The notes beneath the pieces are model-generated. The model did no database searches. It was not told the origin of the DNA and was given only the letters and a program-made list of their open reading frames with translations. Source: Chamaelirium japonicum (lineage: Eukaryota > Streptophyta > Magnoliopsida > Liliales > Melanthiaceae). From it: DNA of 64,000 nt. The DNA lies in assembly GCA_947650365.1 (NCBI GenBank), contig CANTAL010000099.1:248001-312000 (forward strand), given 5' to 3'. This document shows, one piece after another, positions 748-64,000 of the stretch. The first letter of the stretch is position 1, and each line of letters starts with the position of its first letter. A program made the translations under genes and the position numbers.

Positions 748-1351
748 ACGAATGAATTAGAATGTATCGTATGAATGAATTAGAATGGATCATATGAATG
801 AATTAGAATGGATTGTACGAATGAAATAGAATAGATCGTACGAATGAATTAGAATGGATCGTGCGAATGAATTAGAATGGATCGTGCGAATGAATTAGAA
901 TGGATCGTACGAATGAATTAGAATGGATCGTATGAATGAATTAGAATGGACCATACGAATGAATTAGAATGGATGCATTCGGGTGAATGAATTAGAATGG
1001 ATCGTGCGAATGAATTAGAATGGATCGTACGAAGGAATTAGAATGGATCGTACGAAGGAATTAGAATGAATACCTTCGTGCAAATGAATTAGAATGGATC
1101 GTACGAATGAGTAAGAATGGATTGTACGAATGAAATAGAATGGATCGTATGAATGAATTAGAATGGATCGTGCGAATGAATTAGAATGGATCGTACGAAT
1201 GAATTAGAATAGATTGTGCGAATGAATTAGATTGGATCGTACGAATGAATTAGAATGGATCGTACGAATGAATTAGAATGGATCGTATGAATGAATTAGA
1301 ATGGATCGTGCGAATGAATTAGAATGGATCGTACGAATGAAATAGAATGGA
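748..1351 (-). repeat. 23-bp satellite, R block 1
   Basis: Reverse-complement units (GAATGAATTAGAATGGATCG). It includes the GAATACCTTCGTGCAAATG variant near 1068 that recurs in many R blocks as GGATACCTTCGTGC. It ends in junction J1. Confidence 0.95.
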
Positions 1352-1363
1352 TTCGCACGAATG
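1345..1363 (+). repeat. Head-to-head junction J1 (first copy)
   Basis: GAATGGATTCGCACGAATG joins an R arm to an F arm. The spacer CGCACGAATGT between the arms belongs to the 28-bp unit, so the junction is asymmetric and its orientation can be read. The same junction recurs at 5453, 21077 (one mismatch), 32036, 33541, 41818 (one mismatch) and 45004. As its reverse complement it recurs at 10035, 14919, 21826, 23307, 36829, 56436, 57760 and 62420. Confidence 0.92.
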
Positions 1364-2884
1364 TATCCATTCTAATTCATTCGTACGTTCGATTCTAATT
1401 CAATCGTACAATCCATTCTAATTCATTCGCACGATCCATTCGCATTCACTCAAACGATCCATTCTAATTCATTCATATGATCCATTCTAATTCATTCGCA
1501 CGAATGTATCCATTCTAATTCATTCGTACGATCCATTCTAATTCATTTGTACGAATGTATCCACTGTAGTTTATTCATACGATCCATTCTAATTCTTTCG
1601 CACGAATGTATCCATTCCAATTCATTCGTACGATCTATTCTAATTCATTCGCACAATCTATTCTAATTCATTCGTACGATCTATTCTAATTCATTAGCAT
1701 GATCCATTCTAATTCATTCGTACGATCTATTCTATTTCATTCGTACAATCCATTCTTACTCAATCGTATGATCCATTCTAATCCATTCGCACAATCTATT
1801 CTAATTCATTCGTACGATCCATTCTATTTCATTCGTACGATCCATTCGAATTCATACAATCCATTATATTTCATTCATACGATCCATTTTAATTCATTCG
1901 CACGATCCATTCTAATTCATTCATACGATCCATTCTAATTCATTCGTACGATCCATTCTAATTTCTTCGTATGATCTATTCTAATTCCTTCGTACGATCC
2001 ATTCTAATTCCTTCGTACGATCTATTCAAATTCATTCGCACGAATCTATCCATTCTAATTCATTCGTACGATCCATTCTAATTCATTCACACGATCCATT
2101 CTAATTCATTAATTCGATCCAATCTAATTCATTCATACGATCTATTCTAATTCATTCGCACGAATATATCCTTTCTAATTCATTTGTACGATCCAAATTC
2201 ATTTATCCGTACAATCTATTCTATTTCATTCGTACGATCCATTCTTATCGTACGATCCATTCTAATTCAATCCATTCTAATTCATTCGTACGATCCATTC
2301 TAATTCATTCGTACGATCCATTCTAATTCATTCGTACGATTCATTCTAATTCAATCCATTCTAATTCATTCGTACGATCCATTCTAATTCATTCGTACGA
2401 TCCATTCTTACTTATTCGTACGATCCATTCGTATCCTTTCTAATTCATTCGTACGATCCATTCTAATTCCTTCGTACGATCCATTCTAATTCATTCGTAC
2501 GATCCATTCTAATTCATTCGCACGATCCATTCTAATTCATTCGTACGATCCATTCTATTTCATTCATACGATCCATTCTAATTCATTCATACGATCTATT
2601 CTAATTCTTTCGCACGAATGTATCCATTCTAATTCATTCGTACGATCCATTCTAATTAATTCGCACGATCTATTCTAATTCATTCATACAATCCATTCTA
2701 AATCTTTTGCACGAATGTATCCATTCTAATTCATTCGTTCGATCCATTCTAATTCATTCGTACGATCCATTCTAATTGATTCGCACGATCCATTCTAATT
2801 CATGCATACGATCCAATCTAATTCATTCATATGATCCATTCTAATTCATTCGCACGAATGTATCCATTCTAATTCATTCGTACA
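1352..2884 (+). repeat. 23-bp satellite, F block 2
   Basis: F arm of a J1 module. It carries a recognisable higher-order segment (unit variants CTATTTC, 19-bp unit AATTCATACGATCC, CGCACAATC) whose landmark starts at 1699, 354 bp from J1. 1345-2190 is repeated at +4,108 bp. Roughly 1680-2590 is repeated at +44,568 bp. The part from 2431 on is repeated at +28,518 bp. It ends at the F to R junction TACATGTATGAATG (2881). Confidence 0.93.
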
Positions 2885-5459
2885 TGTATGAATGAATTAG
2901 AATGGATCGTACGAATGAATTAGAGTTGATACATTCGTGCGAATGAATAAGAATGGATCGTACGAATGAATTAGATTGGATCGTATGAATGAATTATAAT
3001 GGATCATGCGAATGAATTAGAATAGATCATACGAATGAATTAAAATAGATCGTACGAATGAATTAGAATGGATACATTCGTGCAAAAGAATTAGAATGGA
3101 TTGTATGAATGAATTAGAATGGATCGTGCGATTGAATTAGAATGGATACATTCGTGCGAATGAATTAGAATGGATCGTATGAATGAATTAGATTGGATCG
3201 TATGAATGAATTAGAATAGATCGTATGAATGAATTAGAATGGATCATACGAATGAATTAGAATGGATCGTACGAATGAAATAGAATGGATTGTACGAATG
3301 AGATAGAATGGATCGTACGAATGAATTAGAATGGATACATTCATGCGAATGAATTAGAATGGATCATACGAATGAATTAGAATGGATTCATTCGTGCGAA
3401 TGAATTAGAATGGATCGTACGAATGAGTAAGAATGGATCGTACGAATGAATTAGAATGGATTGAATTAGAATGAATCGTACAAATGAATTAGAATGGATC
3501 GTACGAATGAATTAGAATAGATCGTACGAATGAATTAGAATGGATTGAATTAGAATGAATCGTACGAATGAATTAGAATGAATCATACCGTACGAATGAA
3601 TTAGAATGGATCATACGAAGGAATTAGAATGGATCGTACGAATGAATTAGAATGGATTGTACGAAGGAATTGGAATGGATCGTACGAAGGAATTAGAATG
3701 GATAGTACGAATGAATTAGAATGGATACCTTCGTGCAAATGAATTAGAATGGATCGTACGAATGAGTAAGAATGGATCGTACGAATGAAATAGAATGGAT
3801 CGTATGAATGAATTAGAATGGATCGTGCGAATGAATTAGAATGGATCGTACGAATGAATTAGAATAGATTGTGCGAATGAATTAGAATGGATCGTAGGAA
3901 TGAATTAGAATGGATCGTACGAATGAATTAGAATGGATTGAATTAGAATGAATCGTACGAATGAATTAGAATGAATCATGCCATACGAATGAATTAGAAT
4001 GGATCATACGAAGGAATTAGAATGGATCGTACGAATGAATTAGAATGGATCGTACGAATGAATTAGAATGGATCGTACGAAGGAATTATAATGGATCGTA
4101 CGAAGGAATTAGAATGGATAGTACGAATGAATTAGAATGGATACCTTCGTGCAAATGAATTAGAATGGATCGTACGAATGAGTAAGAATGGATCGTACGA
4201 ATGAAATAGAATGGATCGTATGAATGAATTAGAATGGATCGTGCGAATGAATTAGAATGGATCGTACGAATGAATTAGAATAGATTGTGCGAATGAATTA
4301 GAATGGATCGTACGAATGAATTAGAATGGATCGTACGAATGAATTAGAATGGATCGTATGAATGAATTAGAATGGATCGTGCGAATGAATTAGAATGGAT
4401 CGTACGAATGAATTAGAATATGGATCGTACGAATGAATTAGAATGGATCGTATGAATGAATTAGAATGGATCGTACGAATGAATTAGAATGGATCGTATG
4501 AATGAATTAGAATGGATCGTGCGAATAAATTAGAATGGATCGTATGAATGAATTAGAAAAGATTGTGCGAATAAAATAGAATGGATTGTACGAATGAGAT
4601 AGAATGGATCGTACGAATGAATTAGAATGGATACATTTATGCTAATGAATTAGAATGGATCATACGAATGAATTAGAATGGATTCATTCGTGCGAATGAA
4701 TTAGAATGGATCGTACGAATGAGTAAGAATGGATCATACGAATGAATTAGAATGGATTGAATTAGAATGAATTGTACGAATGAATTAGAATGGATCGTAC
4801 GAATGAATTAGAATGGATCATACGAATGAATTAGAATGGATTGAATTAGAATGAATCGTACGAATGAATTAGAATGAATCATACCGTACGAATGAATTAG
4901 AATGGATCATACGAAGGAATTAGAATGGATCGTACGAATGAATTAGAATGGATCGTACGAATGAATTAGAATGGATCGTACGAAGGAATTAGAATGGATA
5001 GTACGAATGAATTAGAATGGATACCTTCGTGCAAATGAATTAGAATGGATCGTACGAATGAGTAAGAATGGATCGTACGATTAAAATAGAATGGATCGTA
5101 TGAATGAATTAGAATGGATCGTGCGAATGAATTAGAATGGATCGTACGAATGAAATAGAATAGATTGTGCGAATGAATTAGAATTGATCGTACGAATGAA
5201 TTAGAATGGATCGTACGAATGAATTAGAATAGATTATGCGAATGAATTAGAATGGATCGTATGAATTAGAATTGATCGTACGAATGAATTAGAATGGATC
5301 ATACGAAGGATTTAGAATGGATCGTACGAATGAATTAGAATGGATCGTACGAATGAATTAGAATGGATCGTACGAATGAATTAGAATGGATTGTATGAAT
5401 GAATTAGAATGGATCGTGCGAATGAATTAGAATAGATCGTACGAATGAAATAGAATGGA
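2885..5459 (-). repeat. 23-bp satellite, R block 2
   Basis: Long R block with landmark variants GGATTGAATTAGAATG, AATCATACCGTACG and GGATACCTTCGTGC. It contains internal tandem copies: the CATACCGTACG landmark occurs near 3590 and 4881 (CATGCCATACG near 3975), and CCTTCGTGC near 3728, 4143 and 5024. Ends in J1 at 5453-5471. Confidence 0.93.
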
Positions 5460-6874
5460 TTCGCACGAATGTATCCATTCTAATTCATTCGTACGATCCA
5501 TTCTAATTCATTCGTACAATCCATTCTAATTCATTCGCACGATCCATTCGCATTCACTCAAACGATCCATTCTAATTCATTCATATGATCCATTCTAATT
5601 CATTCGCACGAATGTATCCATTCTAATTCATTCGTACGATCCATTCTAATTCATTTGTACGAATGTGTCCACTCTAATTCATTCATACGATCCATTCTAA
5701 TTCATTCGCATGAATGTTTCCATTCCAATTCATTCGTACGATGCATTCTAATTCATTCGCACAATCTATTCTAATTCATTCGTACGATCAATTCTAATTC
5801 ATTAGCATGATCCATTCTAATTCATTCATACGATCTATTCTATTTCATTCGTACAATCCATTCTTACTCAATCGTATGATCCATTCTAATCCATTCGCAC
5901 AATCTATTCTAATTCATTCGTACGATCCATTCTATTTCATTTGTACGATCCATTCTAATTCATACGATCCATTCTATTTCATTCATACGATCCATTTTAA
6001 TTCATTCGCACGATCCATTCTAATTCATTCATACGATCCATTCTAATTCATTCGTACGATCCATTCTAATTTCTTCGTATGATCTATTCTAATTCCTTCG
6101 TACGATCCATTCTAATTCCTTCGTACGATCCATTCAAATTCATTCGCACGAATCTATCCATTCTAATTCATTCGTACGATCCATTCTAATTCATTCGCAC
6201 GATCCATTCTAATTCATTAATACGATCCAATCTAATTCATTCATACGATCTATTCTAATTCATTCGCACGAATATATCCTTTCTAATTCATTCGTACGAT
6301 CCATTCTAATTCATTCGCACAATCTATTCTAATTCATTAGTACGATCCATTCTAATTCATTCGTACGATCCATTCTAATTCATTAGCACGATCCAAATTC
6401 ATTTATCCGTACGATCTATTGTATTTCATTCGTACGATCCATTCTTATCGTACGATCCATTCTCCATTCTAATTCCTTCGTACGATCCATTCTAATTCCT
6501 TCGTATCCATTCTAATTCACTCATACGATCCATTCTAATTCATTCATACGATCTATTCTAATTCATTCGCATGAATGTATCCATTCTAATTCATTCGTAC
6601 GATCCATTCTAATTCATTCGCACAATCTATTCTAATTCATTCATACGATCCATCCTAATTCATTCGCACGAATGTATCCATTCTAATTCATTCGTACAAT
6701 CCATTCTATTTCATTCGTACGATCCATTCTTACTCATTCGTACGATCCATTCGTATCCATTCTAATTCATTCGTACGATCTATTCTAATTCATTCGTACG
6801 ATCCATTCTAATTCATTAATACGATCCAATCTAATTCATTCATACGATCCATTCTAATTCATTCGTACGATCCA
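5460..6874 (+). repeat. 23-bp satellite, F block 3
   Basis: Copy of F block 2 at a constant +4,108 bp over at least 840 bp (landmarks 1699/5807, 2041/6149, 2161/6269). After about 6380 the register changes. The block is cut off mid-unit by the solo LTR. Confidence 0.93.
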
Positions 6875-7045
6875 TGTATGGGTCATCAGATCCAGGTCAC
6901 ATATGGGTCATCGGACCCTGGTTGCACATGAGTCATCAGACACGAGGTATACATAGGTCATCAACCCTGGTTAACTATGGTTCATCAGACCCCGGTTCAC
7001 ATAGGTCATTAGACCCTTATTAGGCATGGGTCATTCAACCCTAGT
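6875..7045. repeat. Degenerate 22-27-bp minisatellite in the solo LTR
   Basis: About seven imperfect copies of a unit around GGGTCATCAGACCC(T/C)GGTTCACA. They lie at the 3' (U5) end of the LTR in its minus-strand sense. The copies are strongly diverged, in keeping with an older insertion. Confidence 0.7.
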
Positions 7046-7229
7046 CATGGAATCTATTTGAAACCTCTAACGGAAGTAGGATTCAATATTTGCATTAGTA
7101 GCAGGTATGATATTTGCATAACGTAAGATATGGGGGAACTCGGTCCCAGAATAAGTCCGACTCTTAAAAGGGAATGTCTCACAAGCCTCTGTGTGCCCTA
7201 AGTCTAAAAGGGTACTCACTGGTTTCTAG

Positions 7230-7810
7230 TAACATAGTTGGCTAGGTTTTTGAGATTTTGAACCTGTTATTGCTAGTCTCGTGACAATCAAGCCCGGAAC
7301 ACTAGTTTTGTTATCAATGCAAGATCGACTAAATAGGGACCCATAATAGGGTATTTTGGTAATTTTATATTTTTGAGATCGTCCAACCGTTAGTGGGTAG
7401 ATCTCGTCAAACTTTTCGTGTCGCTGCCATTTTCGACAGCTTACGACCCCGGATAACGAATCAGTGATTAAACCAATATTGGTCAAACCGGGCACCAAAT
7501 AAGGGCATTTTAGTAATTGTGATTAGTAGGTGTCGACCTACAGCCAACAGTTAGGTTTCATGATTTGGAGTCCAACGCTGCTAGTTTCATGGCAATCGGA
7601 GTTCGGATCGGCTAGTTACTACCAGCTTAAGAATGGTTAGACCGGACCCCATTAGGGGCATTCTGGTAATTACGTTCGGTGGTTGTCAACCCAACGTCAA
7701 TGGGTCGGTACTGGAGAACCGAGTCCATTGCCGCCAGTTTCGCCGAATTCCGACTTCGGACGACGAAATGGTGGTCGGGACAATTTCGAAACTATGCACT
7801 ACGGAATGAT
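7230..7810. repeat. Degenerate 154-bp tandem repeat, four copies
   Basis: An anchor like TGCTAGTxTCxTGxCAATC recurs at 7271, 7425, 7579 and about 7733, spaced exactly 154 bp. A second anchor GGGCATTxTGGTAATT recurs at 7349, 7503 and 7656 (154 and 153 bp). The copies are diverged but collinear. This explains the short ORFs here (for example minus strand 7498-7226 and plus strand 7679-7864), which are not genes. Confidence 0.72.
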
Positions 7811-7821
7811 AAGGTTTGCTA

Positions 7822-7877
7822 TTTAAGTGGGTCCCACACACTTAAGTGGGGTCCACTCATTTAAGTGGGATCAGTAG
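7822..7877. repeat. 19-bp direct repeat, three copies
   Basis: TTAAGTGGG-based units start at 7822, 7841 and 7860. On the minus strand each gives CCCACTTAAAT or CCCACTTAAGT. An AT-rich stretch at 7908-7946 follows on the + strand, so a core promoter of the LTR could lie around here. That is inference only. Confidence 0.6.
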
Positions 7878-8339
7878 GGCCTCCTCCAAGGTAGGGGCCA
7901 CTATTTAAAATTTAAATATTTAAATATTGATAAATTATATAATATTACTTGAATGCCCACTAGGGGCATTCAAATTTACAAAACCCACCCCTCCATTGTT
8001 ACAACGAGCTTGGGAGGGGGTTTTCGCGATGCTCCCGAATCTCGCACGGGGTCAACCGGCCTCGCCGTCGGCGGTGATCCGAAGAGGGCGCTAGGGAGAG
8101 CGGCCCAGAACCCTCCATGCGAGCCGGGGCGGCCTAGTTCCTAGCCGGTGGGATCCGGAAAATGACCCGGAGTTGGGCGGTTTCGAAGCAACTAAGAGGT
8201 GCACAGGGGCTTGCCTCGGGTGGGGTTCGTGGAGGTCGTCGGCACCGTCTCCGTCGCTGCAGGTACTCCGCGTGCCGAGGAGGACATGGTGGCGGGGTCG
8301 GGGAGTCACCAGTGCGGAGGAGCCGCCGCTGCAGCCACC

Positions 8340-8935
8340 GCGCGCCTCCCTCTCCTCTCCTCTCCTTCTTCTTCTTCCTCTCTCCTCTAGTTTCTCTCTT
8401 TCTTCTCTCTTTTCCTCTCTTTCTCTCTCTTCTGTTGACCGGAAATGGGGGAGGGGCTCGCCGGGGTCGCCGACATCACTGCGACGGAGGAGGAGGCCGG
8501 GATTCCCCGCCGCCGCCGCCGCTTGCTGCTGCTCCGCCTCCCCTTCTCTTCTCTGATCTCTCTCTTCCTCTTTCTCTCTCTTTCTTTCCCTCTTCTTTCT
8601 CTCTGGTTTCTCCTTCTTTTCCTCTTCTCTCTCCCGAACTCTCTCTCTTTCTATCTGGTTTTTCCCACCGGGTGAGGGAGCCGGGGAGTGGGGTTAGGTT
8701 TAAAGGGTGAGGGGGAGAGGGCTTGGTGTCAACGGGGTGATGGGAGAGGGGGTGACGTCTGATGGGAGAGGGGGCCGGGTTTGGTGGATCTGGTCCCCTC
8801 TCTCTCTCTCTCTCCATTTCTCTCCATTCCCTCTCCAACTCTCTCTCACTCCATTTCCCCAATTCTCTCTCCAATTCCCACACTCTCTCTCTCTCCATTT
8901 GTCTTTCCATTCCTTTCCATTCCTCTCTTTCTAGG
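8340..8935. repeat. Pyrimidine-rich low-complexity tracts in the solo LTR
   Basis: Three CT-rich tracts (about 8342-8432, 8535-8660 and 8795-8935), including pure CT dinucleotide runs, separated by GC-rich purine segments such as GGGAGAGGGGG. The strand asymmetry keeps several overlapping frames open (182 aa at 8162-8710; 167 aa on the other strand at 8979-8476). Their Ser/Leu/Pro- or Glu/Arg-rich translations are composition artefacts. Confidence 0.8.
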
Positions 8936-9009
8936 TTTGGGGCCGGCCGGGTAGCCCAGAGAACAGGGCGCTGGGGCATGGGCTCATGGGTCCGGGCATC
9001 AAGACGATG

Positions 9010-9965
9010 AGGCTATTTGTTAATTTTATAAGCCGACGATCGCGGAATCAGTGGTTAGGATTCGTCGAATGCTACAAGGCTCGAACACGATACGCACGTA
9101 AATGGCACAATGACTTGTGGAAAAGGTCACCCCACGACGTCCATACCAAGAGTCGAAGAAGGGACCTCTTCAACAGGAGCGAGAGAGGATACCATCGAGC
9201 CATGAGCTCGTTGGTTTTGTCCCTTACCGGCTGAATAAGGCCTAGGTTAGCTAAGTGACCCGAATGGTCGATTTGACCCACCTAGAGGTTGTTCGGACAT
9301 TTGGGTGGGTTCACGAGCAAGTTCGGCCAACCAACTTGGTCGTGAACCAATTGTCCACTAACACGGTTATCGAGGACTGCCTAGTAAATAATAATCAGTC
9401 ATATCTTCTAAACCGTAAGTCTGATCTTTGCCCGGGACCTGCCGTTGGAAAGATCTCAACGGTATGGACCTAACGATTTAGGTTTGGCCGGGTTTTACTC
9501 ACACGATCATCCTATATGATGGAAATGACAAAAACAAACATCAGGGCGCAACTCTTCTACCGTGCGTCAGAAAGTCCCAAAAATATCCGTTGGTAAGGTC
9601 TCAACGAGACAAACTCACTGGTACAATTTCATAGGGTTTCGATTACCCGATTGATCACATTGAAAATTTATGTCGAAAACTATCTACTATCATAACTTTT
9701 CATACAGATGCTTGTTTGACGCGCGGGACGCGCCAAAGCGGAGGTATCGAAGATACGGACAAACGTATCGTAAAACATTTCTGGAGTTTACGTAAAACAA
9801 AACCAGAAACGAAGGAAAACAAAAACATTCGATAAAAAGATAAATATACATTAAAATATTTATAAAGGCATCCTTACATTTCACATGGATCATCATATAT
9901 ATATTAATACATTTATTACATCATTTATTCTTAAATAATAGAGGAGGAATTTTAGGGATCTTACA
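9010..9965 (-). other. U3-like end of the solo LTR, no gene seen
   Basis: Mixed-composition DNA that becomes AT-rich from about 9780 to the LTR end. In minus-strand sense this is the first kilobase of the LTR, where U3 would lie. The ORFs at 8986-9234 and 9255-9473 have no recognisable domain. No promoter element is clear enough to call. Confidence 0.5.
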
Positions 9966-10044
9966 GTGCGAATGAATTAGAATGGATTGTACGAATGAAT
10001 TAGAATGGATCGTACGAATGAATTAGAATGGATACATTCGTGCG
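9966..10044 (-). repeat. 23-bp satellite, short R block 3
   Basis: About three R units between the solo LTR and J1 (reverse orientation, 10035-10053). The first unit begins GTGCGAATG directly after the LTR, lacking its GGATC. Confidence 0.92.
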
Positions 10045-10569
10045 AATCCATTCTATTTCATTCGTACGATCCATTCTAATTCATTCGCACAATCCATTCT
10101 AATTCATTCATACGATCCATTCTAATTCATTCGTACGATCCATTCTAATTCATTCGCACAATCTATTCTAATTCATTCGTATGATCCATTCTAATTCATT
10201 CGCACGATCCATTCTAATTCATTCATACGATCCATTCTATTTTATTCGTACGATCCATTCTTACTCATTCGTACGATCCATTCTAATTCATTTGCATGAA
10301 GGTATCTATTCTAATTCATTCGTACTATCCATTCTAATTACTTCATACGATCCATTCTAATTCCTTCGTACGATCCATTCTAATTCATTCGTACGATCCA
10401 TTCTAATTCCTTCGTATGATCCATTCTAATTCATTCGTACGGTATGATTCATTCTAATTCATTCGTACGATTCATTCTAATTCAATCCATTCTAATTCAT
10501 TCGTACGATCCATTCTAATTCATTCGTACGATCCATTCTAATTCCTTCGTACGATCCAGTCTAATACGA
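10045..10569 (+). repeat. 23-bp satellite, F block 4
   Basis: F arm of a reverse J1 copy, with the CGTACGGTATGATTC long unit near 10439 and the 15-bp AATTCAATCC unit. It flips polarity in CTAATACGATACATTCGTG (10561-10579). Confidence 0.93.
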
Positions 10570-11277
10570 TACATTCGTGCGAATGAATTAGAATGGATCG
10601 TATGAATGAATTAGATTGGATCGTATGAATGAATTAGAATGGATCGTGCGAATGAAATAGAATGGATCGTACGAATGAATTAGAACGGATCGTACGAATG
10701 AATTAGAATGGATCGTACAAATGAATTAGAATGGATCGTATGAATTAGAATGGATCGTACGAAGGAATTAGAATGGATCGTATGAATGAATTAGATTGGA
10801 TCGTATTAATGAATTTGAATGGATCGTATGAATGAATTAGATTGGATCATATGAATGAATTAGAATGGATCTTGCGAATGAATTAGAATGGATCATACGA
10901 ATGAAATAGAATGGATTGTATGAATGAATTAGAATAGATCGCGCGAATGAATTAGAATGGATCGTACGAATGAATTAGAATGGATCATATGAATGAATTA
11001 GAATGGATCGTACGTATGAATTAGAATGGATCGTGCGAATGAATTAGAATGGATCGTATGAATGAATTAGAGTTGATACATTCGTACGAAGGAATTAGAA
11101 TGGATCGTACGAATGAATTAGAATGGATTATATGAATGAATTAGAATGGATCGTACGAATGAATTAGAATGGATACATTCGTGCGAATGAATTAGAATGG
11201 ATTGTACGAATAAATTAGAATGGATCGTACGAATGAATTAGAATAGATTGTACGAATGAATTAGAATGGATCGTACG
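10570..11277 (-). repeat. 23-bp satellite, R block 4
   Basis: Contains ATGAATTTGAATGG and GAATTAGAGTTGATACATTCG variants. The block and its right junction match 54.5-55.1 kb in direct orientation, with an indel of about 160 bp. Ends in the rare R to F junction GGATCGTACGTCTAATTC (J2). Confidence 0.93.
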
Positions 11278-12126
11278 TCTAATTCATTCGTACGATCCAT
11301 TCTAATTCATTCATACAATCCATTCTACTTCTTTTGCACGAATGTATCCATTCTAATTCATTCGTACGATCCATTCTAATTCCTTCGTACGATCCATTCT
11401 AACTCCTTCGTACGATCCATTCTAATTCATTCCCATGAATGTATCCATTCTAATTGATACGTACGATCCATTCTATTTCATTCGTATGATCCATTCTTAC
11501 TCATTCGTACGATCCAATCTAATTCATTCATACGATCCATTCTACGATCCATTCTAATTCATTCGTACGTTCCATTCTAATTCATTAGCACGATCAATGC
11601 TATATCATTCGCACGAATCCATTCTAATTCATTCGTACGATCCATTCTAATTCATTCGCACGAATGAATCCATTCTAATTCATTCGTACAATCCATTCTA
11701 TTTCATTTGTACGATCCATTCTTACTCATTCGTAAGATCCATTCTAATTCATTGGCACGAATGTATCCATTCTAATTCATTCGTACGATCCACTCTAATT
11801 CATTCGTACGATCCATTCCAATTCATTCTAATTCTAATTCATTCGCACGAATGTATCCATTCTAATTCATTCGTACGATCCATTCTAATTCATTCGCACA
11901 ATCTATTCTAATTCATTCGTACAATCGATTCTAATTCATTCATACGATCCATTCTAATTCATTCGCACGAATGTATCCATTCTAATTCATTCGTACGATC
12001 TATTCTAATTCATTCGCACGATCTATTCTATCTCATTCGTACAATCCATTCTATTTCATTCGTACGATCCATTCGAATTCATTCGTACGATTCATTCTAA
12101 TTCAATCCATTCTAATTCATTCGTAC
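11278..12126 (+). repeat. 23-bp satellite, F block 5
   Basis: Starts with J2 and the CTACTTCTTTTGCACGAATG variant also seen at 55.09 kb. Near 11818 it carries CAATTCATTCTAATTCTAATTC, shared with 36.1 kb. Ends at CGTACGAATTAGAATTAG. Confidence 0.93.
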
Positions 12127-19000: not shown

Positions 19001-19378
19001 TCGTACGAATGAATTAGAATAGATTGTGCGAATGAATTAGAATGGATCGTACGAATGAATTAGAATGGATCGTACGAATGAATTAGAATGGATCGTATGA
19101 ATGAATTAGAATGGATCGTGCGAATGAATTAGAATGGATCGTGCGAATGAATTAGAATGGATCGTACGAATGAATTAGAATGGATACATTCGTGCGAAAG
19201 AATTAGAATAGATCGTATGAATGAATTAGAATGGATCGTATGAATGAAATAGAATGGATCGTACGAATGAATTAGAATGGATCGTGCGAATGAATTAGAA
19301 TGGATCGTACGAATGAATTAGAATGGATCGTACGAAGGAATTAGAATGGATCGTACGAATGAATTAGAAAGGATACAT
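16017..19378 (-). repeat. 23-bp satellite, R block 6
   Basis: Second-longest polarity block. Two copies of the R module follow each other: GTATGAGTGTG at 16667 and 16719 (a local 52-bp tandem duplication) and again at 17958; GAATCGATCG at 17043 and 18292. The module period is therefore about 1.24-1.25 kb. Confidence 0.93.
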
Positions 19379-27325: not shown

Positions 27326-27347
27326 GCATACTATCGCACAAAATGGT

Positions 27348-51527: not shown

Positions 51528-54500
51528 CAAAGGAATTAGAATGGATCGTACGCAGGAATTAGAATAGTTTGTACGAAGGAATTAGAATGGATCGTACGAA
51601 TGAATTAGAATGGATACATTCGTGCGAATGAATTAGAATGGATTGTACGAATGAGTAAGAATGGATCGTACGAATGAAATAGAATGAATCGTACGGATGA
51701 ATTAGAATGGATCGTGCGAATGAATTAGAATGGATCGTACAAATGAGTAAGAATGGATCGTATGAATGAATTAGAATGGATCGTGCGAATAAATTAGAAT
51801 GGATCGAACAAATGAATTACAATGGATCATACGAATGAATTAGAATGGATCGTATGAATGAATTAGAATGGATCGTGCGAATGAATTAGAATGGATTATA
51901 TGAATGAAATAGAATGGATCATACGAATGAAATAGAATGGATCGTACGAAGGAATTAGAAAGGATCGTATGAATGAATTAGAGTGGATACATTCGTGCGA
52001 ATGAATTCGAATAGATCGTGCGAATGAATTAGAATGGATTGTACGAATGAATTAGAATGGATCGTACGAATGAAATAGAATGGATCGTACGAATGAATTA
52101 GAATAGATACATTCGTGCAAAAGAAATAGAATGGATTGTATGAATGAATTAGAATGGATCGTGTGAATGAATTAGAATGGATCATACGAATGAATTAGAA
52201 TGAATACATTCGTGCGAATGAATTAGAATGGATCGTGCGAATGAATTAGAATGGATCGTACGAATGAATTAGAATGGATCGTATGAATGAATTAGAATGG
52301 ATCGTGCGAATGAATTAGAATGGATCGTGCGAATGAATTAGAATGGATCGTACGAATGAATTAGAATGGATCGTATGAATGAATTAGATTGGATCGTATT
52401 AATGAATTAGAATGGATCGTATGAATGAATTAGAATAGATCGTACGAATGAATTAGAATGGATACGAATGGATCGTACGAATGAGTAAGAATGGATCGTA
52501 CGAATGAAATAGAATGGATTGTACGAATGAATTAGAATGGATACATTCGTGCGAATGAATTAGGATGGATCGTATGAATGAATTAGAATAGATTGTGCGA
52601 ATGAATTAGAATTGATCGTACGAATGAATTAGAATGGATACATTCATGCGAATGAATTAGAATGGATCGTATGAATGAATTAGAATGGATCGTATGAGTG
52701 AATTAGAATGGATACGAAGGAATTAGAATGGATCGTACGAAGGAATTAGAATGGAGAATGGATCGTGCGAATGAATTAGAATGGATCGTACGAATGAAAT
52801 AGAATAGATCGTACGGATAAATGAATTTGGATCGTGCTAATGAATTAGAATGGATCGTACGAATGAATTAGAATGGATCGTACTAATGAATTAGAATCGA
52901 TTGTGCGAATGAATTAGAATGGATCGTATGAATGAATTAGAAAGGATATATTCGTGCGAATAAATTAGAATAGATCGTATGAATGAATTAGATTGGATCG
53001 TATTAATGAATTAGAATGGATCGTGCGAATGAATTAGAATGGATCGTACGAATGAATTAGAATGGATCATACGAATGAAATAGAATGGATCGTATGAATG
53101 AATTAGAATGGATCGTGCGAATGAATTAGAATGGATCGTACGAATGAATTAGAATAGATTGTGCGAATGAATTAGAATGGATCGTACGAATGAATTAGAA
53201 TGGATCGTACGAATGAATTAGAATGGATCGTATGAATGAATTACAATGGATCGTGCGAATGAATTAGAATGGATCGTACGAATGAATTAGAATGGATCGA
53301 ACGAATGAATTAGAATGGATACATTTGTGCAAAAGAATTAGAATGGATTGTATGAATGAATTAGAATGGATCGTGCGAATGAATTAGAATGGATCGTACG
53401 AATGAATTAGAATGGATACATTCGTGCGAATGAATTAGAATGGATCATACGAATGAATTAGAGTTGATACATTCGTGTGAATGAATTAAAATGGATAATA
53501 CGAATGAGTAAGAATGGATCGTAGAATTAGAATGGATCGTATGAATGAATTAGAATGGATCGTACGAATGAATTAGAATGGATACATTCGTGCGAATGAA
53601 TTAGAATGGATCGTACGAATGAGTAAGAATGGATTGTACGAATGAAATAGAATGGATCGTACGGATGAATTAGAATGGATCGTGCGAATGAATTAGAATG
53701 GATCGTTCGAATGAGTAAGAATGGATCGTATGAATGAATTAGAGTGGATCGTACGAATGAATTAGAATGGATCGTACGAATGAGTAAGAATGGATCGTAT
53801 GAATGAATTAGAATGGATCGTGCGAATAAATTAGAATGGATCGAACGAATGAATTAGAATGGATCGAACGAATGAATTAGAATGGATCATACGAATGAAT
53901 TAGAATGGATCGTACGAATGAATTAGAATGGATTATATGAATGAAATAGAATGAATCATACGAATGAAATAGAATGGATCGTACGAAGGAATTAGAATGG
54001 ATCGTATGAATGAATTAGAGTGGATACATTGAATGAATTAGAGTGGATACATTCGTACAAATGAATTAGAATGGATCGTACGAATGTATTAGAATGGATA
54101 CATTCGTGCAAATGAATTAGAATGGATCATATGAATGAAATAGAATGGATTGTACGAATGAGATAGAATGGATCGTACGAATGAATTAGAATGGATACAT
54201 TCATGCGAATGAATTAGAATGGATCATACGAATGAATTAGAATGGATTCATTCGTGCGAATGAATTAGAATGGATCGTACAAATGAGTAAGAATGGATCG
54301 TACGAATGAATTAGAATGGATTGAATTAGCATGAATCATACGAATGAATTAGTATGGATCGTATTAATGAATTTGAATGGATCGTGCGAATGAATTAGAA
54401 TGGATCATACGAATGAGTAAGAATTGATCGTGCGAATGAATTAGAATGGATCATATGAAAGAATTAGAATGGATTGTATGAATGAATTAGAATGGATCGT

Positions 54501-55043
54501 GCGAATGAATTAGAATGGATACATTCATGCGAATGAATTAGAATGGATCGTATGAATGAATTAGATTGGATCGTATGAATGAATTAGAATGGATCGTGCG
54601 AATGAATTAGAATGGATCGTACGAATGAATTAGAATGGATCGTACGAATGAATTAGAATGGATCGTATGAATTAGAATGGAACGTACGAAGGAATTAGAA
54701 TGGATCGTATGAATGAATTAGATTGGATCGTATTAATGAATTTGAATGGATCGTATGAATGAATTAGATTGGATCGCATAAATGAATTAGAATGGATCGT
54801 GCGAATGAATTAGAATGGATCGTATGAATGAATTAGAGTAGATACATTCGTACGAAGGAATTAGAATGGATCGTACGAATGAATTAGAATGGATTATATG
54901 AATGAATTAGAATGGATCGTACGAGTGAATTAGAATGGATACATTCGTGCGAATGAATTAGAATGGATTGTACGAATAAATTAGAATGGATCGTACGAAT
55001 GAATTAGAATAGATTGTACGAATGAATTAGAATGGATCGTACG
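51528..55043 (-). repeat. 23-bp satellite, R block 21
   Basis: Longest block. The segment at 51955-52185 recurs at 60628. Part of 52.3-53.0 kb matches 13.5-14.2 and 61.0-61.7 kb (GGATACGAATGG, GGATAAATGAATTTGG). The right end (54.5-55.04 kb) matches R block 4 and leaves by the same J2 junction. Confidence 0.93.
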
Positions 55044-55932
55044 TCTAATTCATTCGTACGATCCATTCTAATTCATTCATACAATCCATTCTACTTCTTT
55101 TGCACGAATGTATCCATTCGCACGATCCATTCTAATTCATTCTTTTGCACGAATGTATCCATTCGCACGATCTATTCTAATTCATTCGCACGATCCATTC
55201 TAATTCATTCGTACGATCTATTCTATTTCATTCGTACAATCCATTCTAATTCATTCATACGATCCAATCTAATTCATTCATACGATCCATTCTAATTCAT
55301 TCGTACGATCTATTCTATTTCATTCATACGATCCATTCTAATTCGTTTGTACGATCATTTCTAATTCCTTCGTACGATCCATTCTATTTCATTCGTATGA
55401 CCCATTCTAATTCATAAGTACAATCCATTCTAATTCATTCAAACGATCCATTCTAATTCATTCGTACGATCCATTCTAATTCATTCGCACGATCCATTCT
55501 AATTCATTCATACGATCCAATCTAATTCATTCATACGATCCATTCTAATTCATTCGCACGAATGTATCCATTCTAATTCATTCGCATGATCCATTCTAAT
55601 TCATTCATACGATCCATTCTATTTCATTCGTACGATCCATTCTTACTCATTCGTACGATCCATTCTAATTCATTTGCACGAAGGTATCCATTCTAATTCA
55701 TTCGTACTATCCATTCTAATTCTTTCGTACGATCCATTCTAAATCCTTCGTACGATCCATTCTAATTCATTCGTACGATCCATTCTAATTCCTTCGTATG
55801 ATCCATTATAATTCATTCGTGCGGTATGATTCATTCTAATTCATTCGTACGATTCATTCTAATTCAATCCATTCTAATTCATTCGTACGATCCATTCTAA
55901 TTCATTTGTACGATCCATTCTAATTCATTCGT
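55044..55932 (+). repeat. 23-bp satellite, F block 22
   Basis: J2-type start with CTACTTCTTTTGCACG. It contains two adjacent CTTTTGCACGAATGTATCCATTCG groups (about 58 bp apart). The 1,324-bp tandem duplication begins at about 55557. Flips in CATTCGTACGAATG (55926-55939). Confidence 0.93.
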
Positions 55933-56444
55933 ACGAATGAATTAGAATGGATCGTACGAATGAATTAGAATGGATTGAATTAGAATGAATCGTACGAATG
56001 AATTAGAATGAATCATACCGTACGAATGAATTAGATTGGATCATACGAATGAATTAGAATGGATACATTTGTACGAATGAATTAGAATGGATCGTACGAA
56101 TGAATTAGAATGGATCGTACGAATGAATTAGAATGGATCATATGAATGAATTAGAATGGATCGTATGAATGAATTAGAATGGATCGTGCGAATAAATTAG
56201 AATGGATCATGCGAATGAATTAGAATGGATCGTGCGAATGAATTAGAATGGATCGTACGAATGAAATAGAATGGATTGTACGAATGAGATAGAATGGATC
56301 GTACGAATGAATTAGAATGGATACATTCATGCGAATGAATTAGAATGGATCATACGAATGAATTAGAATGGATTGAATTAGAATGAATCATGCGAATGAA
56401 TTAGAATGGATCGTACGAATGAATTAGAATGGATACATTCGTGC
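55933..56444 (-). repeat. 23-bp satellite, R block 22
   Basis: R arm of the first duplication copy, ending in reverse J1 (56436-56454). Confidence 0.92.
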
Positions 56445-57256
56445 GAATCCATTCTATTTCATTCGTACGATTCATTCTAATTCATTCGCACGATCCATTC
56501 TAATTCATTCATACGATCCATTCTATTTCATTCGTACGATCCATTCTTACTCATTCGTACGATCCATTCTAATTCATTTGCACGAAGGTATCCATTCTAA
56601 TTCATTCGTACTATCCATTCTAATTCCTTCGTACTATCCATTCTAATTCCTTCGTACGATCCATTCTAATTCATTCGTACGATCCATTCTAATTCATTCG
56701 TACGATCCATTCTAATTCCTTCGTATGATCCATTCTAATTCATTCGTACGATTCATTTTATTTCATTCGTACGATCCATTCTAATTCATACGATCCATTC
56801 TATTTCATTCATACGATCCATTTTAATTCATTCGCACGATCCATTCTAATTCATTCGTACGATCCATTCTAATTCATTCGCTCGAATGTATCCATTCTAA
56901 TTCATTCGCACGATCCATTCTAATTCATTCATATGATCCATTCTATTTCATTCGTACGATCCATTCTTACTCATTCGTACGATCCATTCTAATTCATTTG
57001 CACGAAGGTATCCATTCTAATTCATTCGTACTATCCATTCTAATTCTTTCGTACGATCCATTCTAAATCCTTCGTACGATCCATTCTAATTCATTCGTAC
57101 GATCCATTCTAATTCCTTCGTATGATCCATTATAATTCATTCGTACGGTATGATTCATTCTAATTCATTCGTACGATTCATTCTAACTCAATCCATTCTA
57201 ATTCATTCGTACGATCCATTCTAATTCATTTGTACGATCCATTCTAATTCATTCGT
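56445..57256 (+). repeat. 23-bp satellite, F block 23
   Basis: F arm of the first copy plus the start of the second. The 28-bp unit near 56880 reads CGCTCGAATG instead of CGCACGAATG and marks the copy boundary. Confidence 0.92.
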
Positions 57257-57768
57257 ACGAATGAATTAGAATGGATCGTACGAATGAATTAGAATGGATT
57301 GAATAAGAATGAATCGTACGAATGAATTAGAATGAATCATACCTTACGAATGAATTAGAATGGATCATACGAATGAATTAGAATGGATACATTCGTACGA
57401 ATGAATTAGAATAGATCGTACGAATGAATTAGAATGGATTGTACGAATGAATTAGAATGGATCATATGAATGAATTAGAATGGATCGTATGAATGAATTA
57501 GAATGGATCGTGCGAATAAATTAGAATGGATCATGCGAATGAATTAGAATGGATCGTGCGAATGAATTAGAATGGATCGTACGAATGAAATAGAATGGAT
57601 TGTACGAATGAGATAGAATGGATCGTACGAATGAATTAGAATGGATACATTCATGCGAATGAATTAGAATGGATCATACGAATGAATTAGAATGGATTGA
57701 ATTAGAATGAATCGTACGAATGAATTAGAATGGATCGTACGAATGAATTAGAATGGATACATTCGTGC
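57257..57768 (-). repeat. 23-bp satellite, R block 23
   Basis: R arm of the second duplication copy. GATTGAATAAGAATG replaces GATTGAATTAGAATG. Ends in reverse J1 (57760-57778). Confidence 0.92.
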
Positions 57769-60097
57769 GAATCCATTCTATTTCATTCGTACGATTCATT
57801 CTAATTCATTCGCACGATCCATTCTAATTCATTCATACGATCCATTCTATTTCATTCGTACGATCCATTCTTACTCATTCGTACGATCCATTCTAATTCA
57901 TTTGCACGAAGGTATCCATTCTAATTCATTCGTACTATCCATTCTAATTCCTTCGTACTATCCATTCTAATTCCTTCGTACGATCCATTCTAATTCATTT
58001 GTACGATCCATTCTAATTCATTCGTACGATCCATTCTAATTCCTTCGTATGATCCATTCTAATTCATTCGTACGATTCATTCTATTTCATTCGTACGATC
58101 CATTTTAATTCATACGATCCATTCTATTTCATTCATACGATCCATTTTAATTCATTCGCACGATCCATTCTAATTCATTCGTACGATCCATTCTAATTCA
58201 TTCGTACGATCCATTCTAATTCCTTCGTACGATCCATTCTAATTCCTTCGTATCCATTCTAATTCACTCATACGATCCATTCTAATTCATTCATACGATC
58301 CATTCTAATTCATTCGTATGAATGTATCCATTCTAATTCATTCGTACGATCCATTCTAATTCATTCGCACAATCTATTCTAATTCATTCGTGCGAATGAA
58401 TCCATTCTAATTCGTTCGTATGATCCATTCTAATTCATTCGCATGAATGTATCCATTCTAATTCATTCGTACGATCCATTCTATCACATTCGTACAATCC
58501 ATTCTATTTCATTCGTACGATCCATTCTAATTCATTCGCACGATCCATTCTAATTCATTCGCATGATCCATTCTAATTCATTCGTACGATCGATTCTAAT
58601 TCATTCATACGATCCATACTAATTCATTCGCACGAATGTATCCATTCTAATTCATTCGTACGATCCATTCTAATTCATTCGCACGATCCATTCTAATTCA
58701 TTCATACGATCCATTCTATTTCATTCGTACGATCCATTCTTACTCATTCGTACGATCCATCCTAATTTATTTGCACGAAGGTATCCATTCTAATTCATTC
58801 GTACTATCCATTCTAATTCCTTCGTACGATCCATTCTAATTCCTTCGTACGATCCATTCTAATTCATTCGTACGATCCATTCTAATTCATTCGTACGATC
58901 CATTCTATTTCATTCATACGATCCATTTTAATTCATTCGTACGATCCATTCTAATTCATTCACACGATCCATTCTAATTCATTCGCACGATCCATTCTAA
59001 TCCATTCATACGATCCATTCTAATCCATTCGTACGATCCATTCTAATTCATTCGTACGATCCATTCTAATTCATTCGTACGATCCATTCTAATTCCTTCG
59101 TATGATCCATTCTAATTCATTCGTACAGTATGATTCATTCTAATTCATTCGTACGATTCATTCTAATTCAATCCATTCTAATTCATTCGAACGATCCATT
59201 CTAATTCATTCGTACGATCCATTCTAATTCATTCGTACGATTCATTCTAATTCAATCCGTTCTAATTCATTCGTACGATCCATTCTTACTCATTCGTACG
59301 ATCCATTCTAATTCATTCGCACGAATGAATCCATTCTAATTCATTCGTATGATCCATTCTAATTCATTCGCATGAATGTATCCATTCTAATTCATTCGTA
59401 CGATCCATTCTATCTCATTCGTACAATCCATTCTATTTAATTCGTACGATCCATTCTAATTCATTCGCACGATCCATTCTATTTCATTCGCATGATCCAT
59501 TCTAATTCATTCGTACGATCGATTCTAATTCATTCATACGATCCATTTTAATTCATTCGTACGAATGTATCCATTCTAATTCATTCGTACGATCCATTCT
59601 AATTCATTCGTACAATCCATTCTAATTTATTTGCACGATCCATTCTTACTCATTCGTACGATCCATTCTAATTCCTTCGTACGATCCATTCTAATTCCAT
59701 CGTATCCATTCTAATTCACTCATACGATCCATTCTAATTCAATCATACGATCCATTCTAATTCATTCGCATGAATGTATCCATTCTAATTCATTCGTACG
59801 ATCCATTCTAATTCATTCACACAATCTATTCTAATTCATTCATACGATCCATCCTAATTCATTCGCACGAATGTATCCATTCTAATTCATTCGTACAATC
59901 CATTCTATTTCATTCGTACGATCCATTCTTACTCATTCGTACGATCCATTCGTATCCATTCTAATTCATTCGTACGATCCATTCTAATTCCTTCGTATGA
60001 TCCATTCTAATTCATTCGTACGATTCATTCTAATTCAATCCATTCTAATTCATTCGTACGATCCATTCTAATTCATTCGTACGATTCATTCGTACGA
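57769..60097 (+). repeat. 23-bp satellite, F block 24
   Basis: Long F block with CGATCGATTC at 58588 and 59517 (929 bp apart), CGTACAGTATG near 59118 and several 15-bp units. Leaves through CATTCGTACGATCGTATGAG. Confidence 0.93.
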
Positions 60098-62428
60098 TCG
60101 TATGAGTGTGAATGAATTAGAATGGATCGTGCGAATGAATTAGAATGGATCGTATTAATGAATTAGAATGGATCATGCGAATGAATTAGAATGGATCGTA
60201 CGAATGAGTAAGAATGGATCGTGCGAATGAATTAGAATGGATCATATGAATAAATTAGAATGGATCGTATGAATGAATTAGAATGGATCGTGCGAATAAA
60301 TTAGAATGGATCTTATGAATGAATTTGAATAGATTGTGCGGATGAATTAGAATGGATCGTACGAATGAATTAGAATGGATACATTCGTGCGAATGAATTA
60401 GAATGGATCGTATGAATGAATTAGAATCGATCGTACGAATGAATTAGAATGGATCATGCGAATGAATTAGAATGGATCGTGCGAATGAATTAGAATGGAT
60501 CGTACGAATGAAATAGAATGGATTGTACGAATGAGATAGAATGGATCGTACGAATGAATTAGAATGGATTATATGAATGAAATATAATGGATCATACGAA
60601 TAAAATAGAATGGATCGTACGAAGGAATTAGAATGGATCGTATGAATGAATTAGAGTGGATACATTCGTGCGAATGAATTCGAATAGATCGTGCGAATGA
60701 ATTAGAATGGATTGTACGAAAGAATTAGAATGGATCGTACGAATGAAATAGAATGGATCGTACGAATGAATTAGAATGGATACATTCGTGCAAAAGAAAT
60801 AGAATGGATTGTATGAATGAATTAGAATGGATCGTGTGAATGAATTAGAATGGATCATACGAATGAATTAGAATGGATACATTCGTGCGAATGAATTAGA
60901 ATGGATCGTACGAATGAATTAGAATAGAACGTATGAATGAATTAGAATGGATCGTGCGAATGAATTAGAATGGATCGTGCGAATGAATTAGACTGGATCG
61001 TACGAATGAATTAGAATGGATCGTATGAATGAATTAGATTGGATCGTATTAATGAATTAGAATGGATCGTACGAATGAATTAGAATAGATCGTACGAATG
61101 AATTAGAATGGATACGAATGGATCGTACGAATGAGTAAGAATGGATCGTACGAATGAAATAGATTGGATTGTACGAATGAATTAGAATGGATACATTCGT
61201 GCGAATGAATTAGGATGGATCTTATGAATGAATTAGAATAGATTGTGCGAATGAATTAGAATGGATCGTACGAATGAATTAGAATGGATACATTCATGCG
61301 AATGAATTAGAATGGATCGTATGAATGAATTAGAATGGATCGTATGAGTGAATTAGAATGGATACGAAGGAATTAGAATGGATCGTACGAAGGAATTAGA
61401 ATGGAGAATGGATCGTGCGAATGAATTAGAATGGATCGTGCAATAAGAATGGATCGTACGAATGAAATAGAATAGATCGTACGGATAAATGAATTTGGAT
61501 CGTGCTAATGAATTAGAATGGATCGTACGAATGAATTAGAATGGATCGTACTAATGAATTAGAATAGATTGTGCGAATGAATTAGAATGGATCGTACGAA
61601 TGAATTAGAAAGGATATATTCGTGCGAATGAATTAGAATAGATCGTATGAATGAATTAGATTGGATCGTATTAATGAATTAGAATGGATCGTGCGAACGA
61701 ATTAGAAAGGATCGTACGAATGAATTAAAATGGATAGATTCGTGCGAATGAATTTGAATGGATCGTACGAAGGAATTAGAATGGATCGTACGAAGGAATT
61801 AGAATAGATCATACGAAGAAATTAGAATGGATCGTACGAATGAATTAGAATGGATCGTATGAATGAAGTAGAATGGATCGTGCGAATGAATTAAAATGGA
61901 TCGTATGAATGAAATAGAATGAATCGTATGAATTAAAATGGATCGTACGAATGAAATAGAATAGATCGTACGAATGAATTAGAATAGATTGTGCGAATGG
62001 ATTAGAATGGATCATACGATTGAGTAAGAATGGATTGTACGAATGAAATAGAATAGATCGTACGAATGAATTAGAATGGATCATGGTAATGAATTAGAAT
62101 TGATCGTACGAATGAATTAGAATAGATTGTGCGAATGAATTAGAATGGATTGTACGAATGAATTGGAATGGATACATTCATGCGAATGAATTAGAATGGA
62201 TCGTATGAATGAATTAGAGTGGATACATTCGTACAAATGAATTAGAATGGATCATACGAATGAATTAGAATGGATACATTCGTGTGAATGAATTAGAATG
62301 GATCATATGAATGAATTAGAATGGATCGTTTGAGTGAATGCGAATGGATCGTGCGAATGAATTAGAATGGATTGTACGAATGAATTAGAATGGATCGTAC
62401 GAATGAATTAGAATGGATACATTCGTGC
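60098..62428 (-). repeat. 23-bp satellite, R block 24
   Basis: R module (GTATGAGTGTG about 60099, GAATCGATCG 60424), then the segment at 60628-60858 shared with 51955. From 61.0 kb it is the +47,501 copy of 13.5-14.93 kb. The inverted 1699-type landmark at 62084 lies 354 bp from J1 (62420-62438). Confidence 0.93.
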
Positions 62429-64000
62429 GAATCCATTCTATTTCATTCGTACGATCCATTCTAATTCATTCGCACGATCCATTCTAACTCATTCATACGA
62501 TCCATTCTAATTCATTCGTACGATCCATTCTAATTCATTCGTATGATCCATTCTAATTCATTCGCACAATCTATTCTAATTCATTCGTACGATCCATTCT
62601 AATTCATTCGCACGATCCATTCTAATTCATTCATACGATCCATTCTATTTCATTCGAACGATCCATTCTTACTCATTCGTACGATCCATTCTAATTCATT
62701 TGCACAAAGGTATCCATTCTAATTCATTCGTACTATCCATTCTAATTCCTTCGTACGATCCATTCTAATTCCTTCGTACGATCCATTCTAATTCATTCGT
62801 ACGATCCATTCTAATTCATTCGTACGATCCATTCTAATTCCTTCGTATGATCCATTCTAATTCATTCGTACGGTATGATTCATTCTAATTCATTCGTATT
62901 ATTCATTCTAATTCAATCCATTCTAATTCATTCGTACGATCCATTCTAATTCATTCGTACGATCCATTCTAATTCATTCGTACGATTCATTCTAATTCAA
63001 TCCATTCTAATTCATTCATACGATCCATTCTTACTCATTCGTACGATCCATTCTAATTCATTCGCACGAATGAATCCATTCTAATTCATTCGTATGATCC
63101 ATTCTAATTCATTCGCATGAATGTATCCATTCTAATTCATTCGTACGATCCATTCTATCTCATTCGTACAATCCATTCTATTTCATTCGTACGATCCATT
63201 CTAATTCATTCGCACGATCCATTCTAATTCATTCGCATGATCCATTCTAATTCATTCGTACGATCGATTCTAATTCATTCATATGATCCATTCTAATTCA
63301 TTCACACGAATGTATCCATTCTAATTCATCCGTACGATCCATTCTAATTCATTCGCACAATCTATTCTAATTCATTCATACGATCCATTCTAATTTATTC
63401 GCACGATCCATTCTAATTCATTCATACGATCCATTCTAATTCATTCATATGATCCATTCTAATTCATTCGCACGATCCATTCTTACTCATTCGTACGATC
63501 CATTCTAATTCATTCGCACGATCCATTCTAATTCATTAATACGATCCATTCTAATTCATTCGCATGATCCATTCTAATTCATTCACACTGATACGATCCA
63601 TTCTAATTCATTCGCACGAATGTATCCTTTCTAATTCATTCGTACGATCCATTCTAATTCATTCGCACAATCTATTCTAATTCATTCGAACGATCCATTC
63701 TAATTCATTCGTACGATCCATTCTAATTCATTCATACGATCCATTCTAATTCATTCGCACGATCCATTCTAATTCATTCGTACGATCCATTCTAATTCAT
63801 TCGTACGATCCATTTTAATTCATTTGCACAATCTATTCTAATTCATTCGTACGATCCATTCTAATTCATTCGCACGATCCATTCTAATTCATTCATATGA
63901 TCCATTCTATTTCATTCATACGATCCATTCTTACTCATTCGTACGATCCATTCTAATTCATTTATACGATCCATTTTAATTCATTCGTACGATCTATTCT
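62429..64000 (+). repeat. 23-bp satellite, F block 25
   Basis: F arm collinear with 14928-16000, with two extra units near 62.95 kb. Marker CGATCGATTC at 63261 and TTCACACTGATACG near 63583. Cut by the window end. Confidence 0.93.

Follow-up and report, generated by a model that had tools for sequence, protein, structure and literature searches.

The stretch of DNA analyzed here, referred to as the window, comprises the 64,000 nucleotides at positions 248001-312000 of contig C111 of the Chamaelirium japonicum assembly (G000; 1.52 Gb in 3,253 contigs), and the subject of the analysis is J1, a head-to-head junction at which a satellite array in the window changes strand. About 54.4 kb of the window consists of a 23-bp satellite with the unit GAATGAATTAGAATGGATCGTAC, as detected by Tandem Repeats Finder (TRF), and two non-satellite inserts break the array. 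TRF and strand segmentation placed the satellite in three blocks:

1..6874, strands alternating: 23-bp satellite
9966..24065, strands alternating: 23-bp satellite
29984..64000, strands alternating: 23-bp satellite

Strand segmentation yielded 50 satellite stretches with a median length of 833 bp and 47 strand switches, 24 of them head-to-head (+|-) and 23 tail-to-tail (-|+). Genome-wide counts given below are, for all patterns, counts of exact strings in the assembly; beyond these counts, the sequence sample consisted of the window and 24 fetched loci, 20 of which, on contig C1, were chosen for carrying the J1 19-mer. In this non-random sample the switch density was 0.86-1.29 per kb. The exact 23-bp unit occurred 2,234,541 times in the genome, and extrapolation from the density of exact units put the satellite content at an estimated 298-353 Mb, or roughly one fifth of the assembly. 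With its long head-to-tail arrays, short unit and very high copy number, the repeat is a satellite DNA. Four satellite stretches searched as text in the literature gave no match, and searches with "23-bp satellite" terms returned only titles without relation to it. Judged by eye and uncounted, much of the variation among units (e.g., CGTACG, CATACG, TGTACG and CGTGCG) looks like C-to-T or G-to-A changes at the two CpGs that each unit contains, of the sort expected from methylated heterochromatin.

When the J1 19-mer was searched with up to two mismatches, 20 matches were found in the window against 0.01 expected. Fifteen of these, 13 exact and two with one mismatch, sit at head-to-head switches. 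The original prediction of 24 head-to-head boundaries, 15 of them formed by J1 with seven copies in one sense and eight in the other, was thus confirmed by segmentation and the 19-mer search. The copies are as follows:

1345..1363, + strand: J1 head-to-head junction copy, exact
5453..5471, + strand: J1 copy, exact
10035..10053, - strand: J1 copy, exact; the insert at 6875-9965 cuts its right arm after 69 bp
14919..14937, - strand: J1 copy, exact
21077..21095, + strand: J1 copy, one mismatch; right arm only about 70-80 bp long, ending in a tail-to-tail switch
21826..21844, - strand: J1 copy, exact
23307..23325, - strand: J1 copy, exact; 982 bp of right arm, including a tail-to-tail switch, common to the 32036 copy
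32036..32054, + strand: J1 copy, exact
33541..33559, + strand: J1 copy, exact; 1375 bp on the left and 913 bp on the right common to the opposite 62420 copy
36829..36847, - strand: J1 copy, exact
41818..41836, + strand: J1 copy, one mismatch
45004..45022, + strand: J1 copy, exact
56436..56454, - strand: J1 copy, exact; right arm leaves the majority after about 43 bp
57760..57778, - strand: J1 copy, exact; near duplicate of the 56436 copy (592 bp on the left and 1168 bp on the right in common)
62420..62438, - strand: J1 copy, exact

The remaining five matches (11606, 35455, 48478, 51990 and 60663) have two mismatches each and lie inside one-strand stretches. The bare 19-mer is also not diagnostic of J1 elsewhere: six of the 22 exact copies fetched from contig C1 were in one-strand array without a switch. 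The switch at 46210 clustered with J1 under average linkage, but its core differs and it was not counted as J1. A landmark, ATTCATTAGCATGATCC, had been reported exactly 354 bp from J1 in six copies and was found there in all six, the 62438 copy having one base changed; it also occurs at the 21844 copy with one change and is missing from three further copies tested (36847, 45004 and 32036).

Origin and structure of J1

All 105 pairs of the 15 window copies had at least 124 bp on the left and at least 39 bp on the right in common. Arm extension was measured with a heuristic score that penalises background satellite similarity and is not fully symmetric; for example, the left arms of the 5453 and 23307 copies extended for 192 bp in one run and 425 bp in another. 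In a multiple alignment, the mean left-arm distance among J1 copies was 5.5% over 165 bp, compared with 23.3% among 15 phase-aligned random stretches, and a gentler background of about 16% was obtained by pairwise alignment of random opposite-strand stretches. The J1 copies agree with one another at about 95%.

The unit immediately left of the junction provides a second line of evidence. Among 7,273 fetched units, the variable five bases were AATTA in 5,792 and AAATA in only 453 (6.2%), and yet AAATA was found left of J1 in 41 of 46 junctions (six of the 52 matches to the J1 24-mer lay in one-strand array and were set aside from this test). Genome-wide, the exact 40-mer of J1 with AAATA was counted 10,395 times and that with AATTA 466 times. 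Independent origins would give the opposite ratio of AAATA to AATTA, and a single origin is therefore indicated. Based on these results, a single event appears to have produced J1, and the roughly ten thousand copies, which lie in either direction, appear to descend from it. The earlier proposal that one ancestral junction was copied together with its arms in either direction agrees with the arm distances, the left-unit marker and the counts, and the arm trees, which could have revealed independent origins, gave no such indication when run on the 15 window copies. The left-unit marker test could serve as a simple means to tell descent from repeated origin in other genomes.

The opposite view, that a fragile or palindromic site in the unit gave rise to J1 repeatedly, could draw on the near-palindrome at which J1 sits, on three C1 copies (L016, L018 and L019) with different left units and on the 466 exact 40-mers with AATTA. 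The rare AAATA at most fetched junctions and in 10,395 of the 10,861 exact 40-mers, together with an arm identity far above background, are in conflict with it, and repeated independent origin was rejected as the main account on the left-unit marker and the arm distances; as a general explanation it is very unlikely, while a few independent origins are possible.

As read from the sequence, J1 consists of GAATGGAT joined to TCGCACGAATGTATCC. The satellite thus runs in opposite directions on the two sides of a 12-bp spacer, and any overlap is limited to AT. As single-stranded DNA, the J1 region was predicted to form a long hairpin (-48.4 and -38.4 kcal/mol in two copies, z -16 and -11), compared with -8.5 and -7.5 kcal/mol (z -1.8 and -1.5) in two one-strand controls. 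This hairpin could be taken to favor the creation of J1 by snap-back (fold-back) replication, with arms that are inverted copies of one stretch, but any head-to-head satellite should fold likewise. Moreover, over the first 92 bp the similarity between left and right arm was 0.83-0.89 across the 15 window copies, values that also occur among random opposite-strand pairs (n = 298; mean 0.84, 90th percentile 0.91), even though the copies resemble one another far more closely. With arm likeness at background, there is no support for a perfect snap-back palindrome or for a snap-back origin in the recent past. Gene conversion could conceivably have erased an old fold-back, but snap-back is on the whole an unlikely source of J1.

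The 24-bp core of J1 had two non-consensus bases over the 15 window copies (2/360, 0.56%), compared with about 25 of 1,380 positions in the flanks (Fisher p 0.10). Only the 15 window rows of the 71-row conservation profile were used, the full profile containing non-junction matches with three or four mismatches. Because the core is not clearly more conserved than its flanks, no function need be assumed for J1. A foldback-like mobile element centred on J1 was also considered and rejected, as the distance from J1 to the edge of the satellite exceeded 1 kb in each of the 20 C1 loci and the arm lengths of J1 vary. No J1 module with constant ends and a target duplication in non-satellite DNA was found among these loci; non-satellite DNA within 10 kb was present only in L007, L010 and L015, and of these L007 and L010 have copies that do not mark a switch.

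Spread of J1 through the genome

The occurrence of J1 in the window was upheld, whereas its being local to the window was not, since the AAATA-bearing 40-mer was found genome-wide on both strands (5,144 forward and 5,251 reverse). The bare 19-mer had 14,945 matches, which is an overcount, and the 40-mer was exact in only 11 of the 15 window copies, so that the true share of J1 should be somewhat higher than the exact count suggests. Exact J1 makes up approximately 2-4% of the estimated genome-wide switches, and its dominance among the head-to-head switches of the window is a property of this array. The analysis also gave no support for the suggestion that J1 generally forms the core of the amplified unit, as three other junctions were present in 4,185, 3,844 and 2,241 copies. 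Long satellite arrays are difficult to assemble, and the strand switches might for this reason be regarded as assembly misjoins. This is extremely unlikely, considering that J1 is found in thousands of copies, with consistent arms on contigs C1, C2 and C111, and that switches in the sampled sequence are spaced about 1 kb apart, a distance well within the length of a single long read.

The arms of the 15 window copies carry information on how the copying proceeded. Left- and right-arm distances disagreed (Mantel r 0.22, p 0.13; for the seven copies with 600-bp right arms, r -0.28, p 0.73), and the left-arm distance was 0.0549 for same-direction and 0.0548 for opposite-direction pairs. This suggests that J1 copies recombine close to the junction and have changed direction more than once. 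In the clearest opposite-direction pair (33541 and 62420), the shared 1,375 bp on the left and 913 bp on the right were alike at about 97%. The longest shared arm ended in same-strand satellite for 13 of the 15 left arms and seven of the 15 right arms, as expected under homologous exchange, and a few of the other J1 arms reach a tail-to-tail edge, as expected after insertion. Random shared 19-mers (149 window pairs) had median extensions of 106 bp on the left and 103 bp on the right, and J1 pairs of 222 bp and 101 bp, respectively. Arm sharing is thus general in the array, yet the left arms of J1 reach further.

We consider it probable that a single illegitimate joining made J1, that ordinary satellite recombination copied it and that exchange between inverted stretches turned the copies round. 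Judging from the sequence, a plus-strand unit ending in GAATGGAT would once have been joined to the minus-strand variant unit TCGCACGAATGTATCC, and the product would have been two opposed arrays around the 12-bp spacer, with at most the 2-base AT overlap. The exact counts and the left-unit marker show that J1 and its neighboring units then came to be present about ten thousand times in the genome. The copying itself may have been the usual turnover of satellites by unequal exchange, gene conversion or break-induced copying, sometimes with non-homologous insertion of a segment in addition. With both strands present in one array, exchange between inverted stretches would flip segments and could leave J1 about equally frequent in the two directions. 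A dedicated element or enzyme would not be required, and since the three other junctions also have thousands of copies, the process may be a general one.

A toy exchange model with direct-repeat exchange, inversion between inverted repeats and rare illegitimate insertion, all at arbitrary rates, was run 480 times, and 361 runs outside the observed range of switch density were dropped. In 110 of the 119 in-range runs, a single junction type accounted for 62% or more of its class.

Several results weigh against this explanation. When junctions were typed by average linkage at 11% on ±45 bp (single linkage merged nearly everything), the window contained five head-to-head and 16 tail-to-tail types. 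A ratio of that size appeared in only three of the 119 in-range runs, and the median of the exchange model was only 1-3 types per class, far below 16. A random-insertion model, also with arbitrary rates (60 runs), produced neither a J1-like dominance nor the asymmetry; its median was 18-19 types per class, with switches far denser than the real ones. Neither model, as parameterized, reproduces the window in full. In addition, the shared left arms of J1 are about twice as long as those of random 19-mers, so that segments may have been copied preferentially around J1, and the evidence comes entirely from the assembly. The combination of few head-to-head and many tail-to-tail types was reproduced by neither model and leaves room for preferential copying of J1 segments.

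Such copying could have taken the form of J1-centred segments being copied and inserted as such, whether through template switching, by break-induced copying or from circular DNA that was reinserted. With every insertion, one old head-to-head J1 would arrive and one new tail-to-tail edge would be created, which would agree with the numbers of types in the window and with the longer left arms. Homology runs nearly to the tail-to-tail edge in several copies (33541, 1375 of 1392 bp on the left and 913 of 935 on the right; 21826, 624 of 659 on the right) and fully to it in the right arm of 21077. Satellite arrays of Tribolium freemani have been found in circular DNA, as cited in PMC13081366. On the other hand, there is no fixed unit length, most left arms and nearly half of the right arms end inside same-strand satellite, and some tail-to-tail edges have themselves been copied (23198 and 32148, the latter being the left edge of 33541; 55928 and 57252). 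Junctions from C1 loci fall into the clusters of the edges at 34494, 36145 and others, and several tail-to-tail types seen once in the window reappear in those loci. The contrast between the classes was also weaker in the larger, J1-selected sample of the window and 20 C1 loci, i.e., 25 clusters among 150 head-to-head and 41 among 144 tail-to-tail switches. Segment insertion is accordingly a doubtful account of the pattern as a whole.

In a stronger form, which can be entertained only tentatively, a J1-centred inverted segment would be the preferred substrate of satellite spread, and copies of it would leave the array as hairpins, circles or products of template switching and be inserted again in either direction. 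This would keep head-to-head junctions few and make tail-to-tail edges new each time. If it were true, direction-switching would be part of how the satellite filled a fifth of the genome.

Comparison with other satellite systems

In higher-order repeats of satellites, a block of variant units is homogenised and spread. The block bearing J1 resembles these in that variant units have been homogenised and spread, but its spacing and arm lengths vary, there is no constant period and both directions occur. Inversions are also known inside plant centromere satellites. In Salicaceae centromeres, inversions between haplotypes have been described, and the account given of them mentions no bulk-copied junction (PMC12046899). 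In the literature searched, titles and abstract openings revealed no recognisable plant example of a satellite inversion site copied in bulk. Human HSat3 (chromosome 9) and beta-satellite arrays contain more than 200 inversions, with repeat recombination named as one source of inversion (PMC10813616). They share with the present array the many strand switches inside arrays, but no single junction copied thousands of times is described in the passages on these satellites (PMC10813616).

The closest likeness is with the satellites of Tribolium madens, which show macro-dyad symmetries with inverted subarrays and conserved inversion sites (2,044 INV_1a, 3,486 INV_1b and 6,428 INV_2, with 98.2-98.9% similarity; PMC13081366). 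For one site ectopic recombination was suggested, and the conservation was considered possibly to reflect modes of spread (PMC13081366). The earlier statement that no described mechanism is known which specifically makes the pattern seen in the window is not supported. Conserved inversion sites copied thousands of times have been described in T. madens (PMC13081366), and recombination between direct and inverted satellite can make most of the pattern.

In both systems arrays switch direction, a few conserved inversion types have thousands of copies, the satellite takes up a very large share of the genome and the arms are able to form long hairpins (PMC13081366). As in T. madens, subarrays of opposite direction lie in one array, with 47 switches in 54.4 kb, and an inversion site is conserved and copied thousands of times, with 10,395 exact 40-mers. 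The two intermingled satellites described for T. madens derive from an element of about 110 bp, the TmSat2 monomer being 704 bp, and the inverted subarrays are several kb long and confirmed by raw reads (PMC13081366). In contrast, the array described here belongs to a plant genome known from its assembly, has a single 23-bp satellite with about one switch per kb, and is dominated in the window by one head-to-head junction beside many tail-to-tail ones. Cassettes of two intermingled satellites with fixed transition zones were not found; the window and the 24 fetched loci, a very small fraction of the arrays, contained a single 23-bp family. As far as testable, the present case would work like that of T. 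madens, from which it differs in its far shorter unit, its more closely spaced switches and in having one satellite.

According to a statement of 2026, macro-dyad symmetries had been documented in no genus other than Tribolium (PMC13081366), and a search for "macro-dyad" with satellite in the literature returned only the Tribolium work and a citing paper. A junction of apparently single origin with more than 10,000 exact copies in a 23-bp plant satellite suggests that the pattern is wider than one beetle genus. Moreover, descent and recombination can account for most of the pattern, and an inversion site may thus be highly conserved without having a function.

Other junction types and inserts

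Clustering revealed further recurrent junctions in the window:

34690..34730, also 39960 and 50527, no strand assigned: J2, the second head-to-head type, GGATACACGATCCAGATCC; 3,844 exact 39-mers genome-wide
11265..11290, also 55043, no strand assigned: third head-to-head type
55915..55945, also 57252, no strand assigned: tail-to-tail junction, palindrome TTCATTCGTACGAATGAA; its 26-mer at 4,185 places genome-wide

A palindromic head-to-head 34-mer was found at 2,241 places genome-wide. Among the matches listed, those of J2 begin on contig C2 and those of the other patterns on C1, and J2 seems to be absent from the 137-Mb C1; junction repertoires may be array- or chromosome-specific. The places of J1 and J2 on C1 and C2, again among the matches listed, are both near contig ends and in the interior. 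An initial impression that C2 holds J1 in one direction only was dropped, as the locus L022 from this contig holds four exact reverse copies.

Five pairs of C1 loci (L003/L005, L004/L006, L007/L010, L008/L011 and L009/L012), separated by about 0.65 to 2.7 Mb, have matches of 6.9-9.8 kb at 94.5-98.3%. An inverted match of 4.6 kb at 94.8% exists between L003 and L004. These matches reflect either the large-scale duplication and inversion of entire array blocks or a duplication in the assembly.

The two non-satellite inserts in the array are:

24066..29983, - strand: long terminal repeat (LTR) retroelement in satellite; LTRs at 24066-25328 and 28721-29983, target duplication CATTC, gag open reading frame (ORF) at 27348-28631 on the minus strand
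6875..9965, no strand assigned: non-satellite insert of 3.1 kb, CT-rich, with TG...CA ends; edges good to a few bases

The LTRs of the retroelement are 1,263 bp long with three differences between them, and its gag ORF matches PF03732 (E 2.3e-08). No pol-like ORF was seen by eye among the listed ORFs of at least 120 amino acids in the element, the profile scan having been made on the gag ORF only. It is probably a recent non-autonomous element. At the edges of the 6875-9965 insert no clear match was seen that would represent a target duplication. This insert, which truncates the right arm of the 10035 copy of J1, sits where the satellite turns from the - to the + strand.

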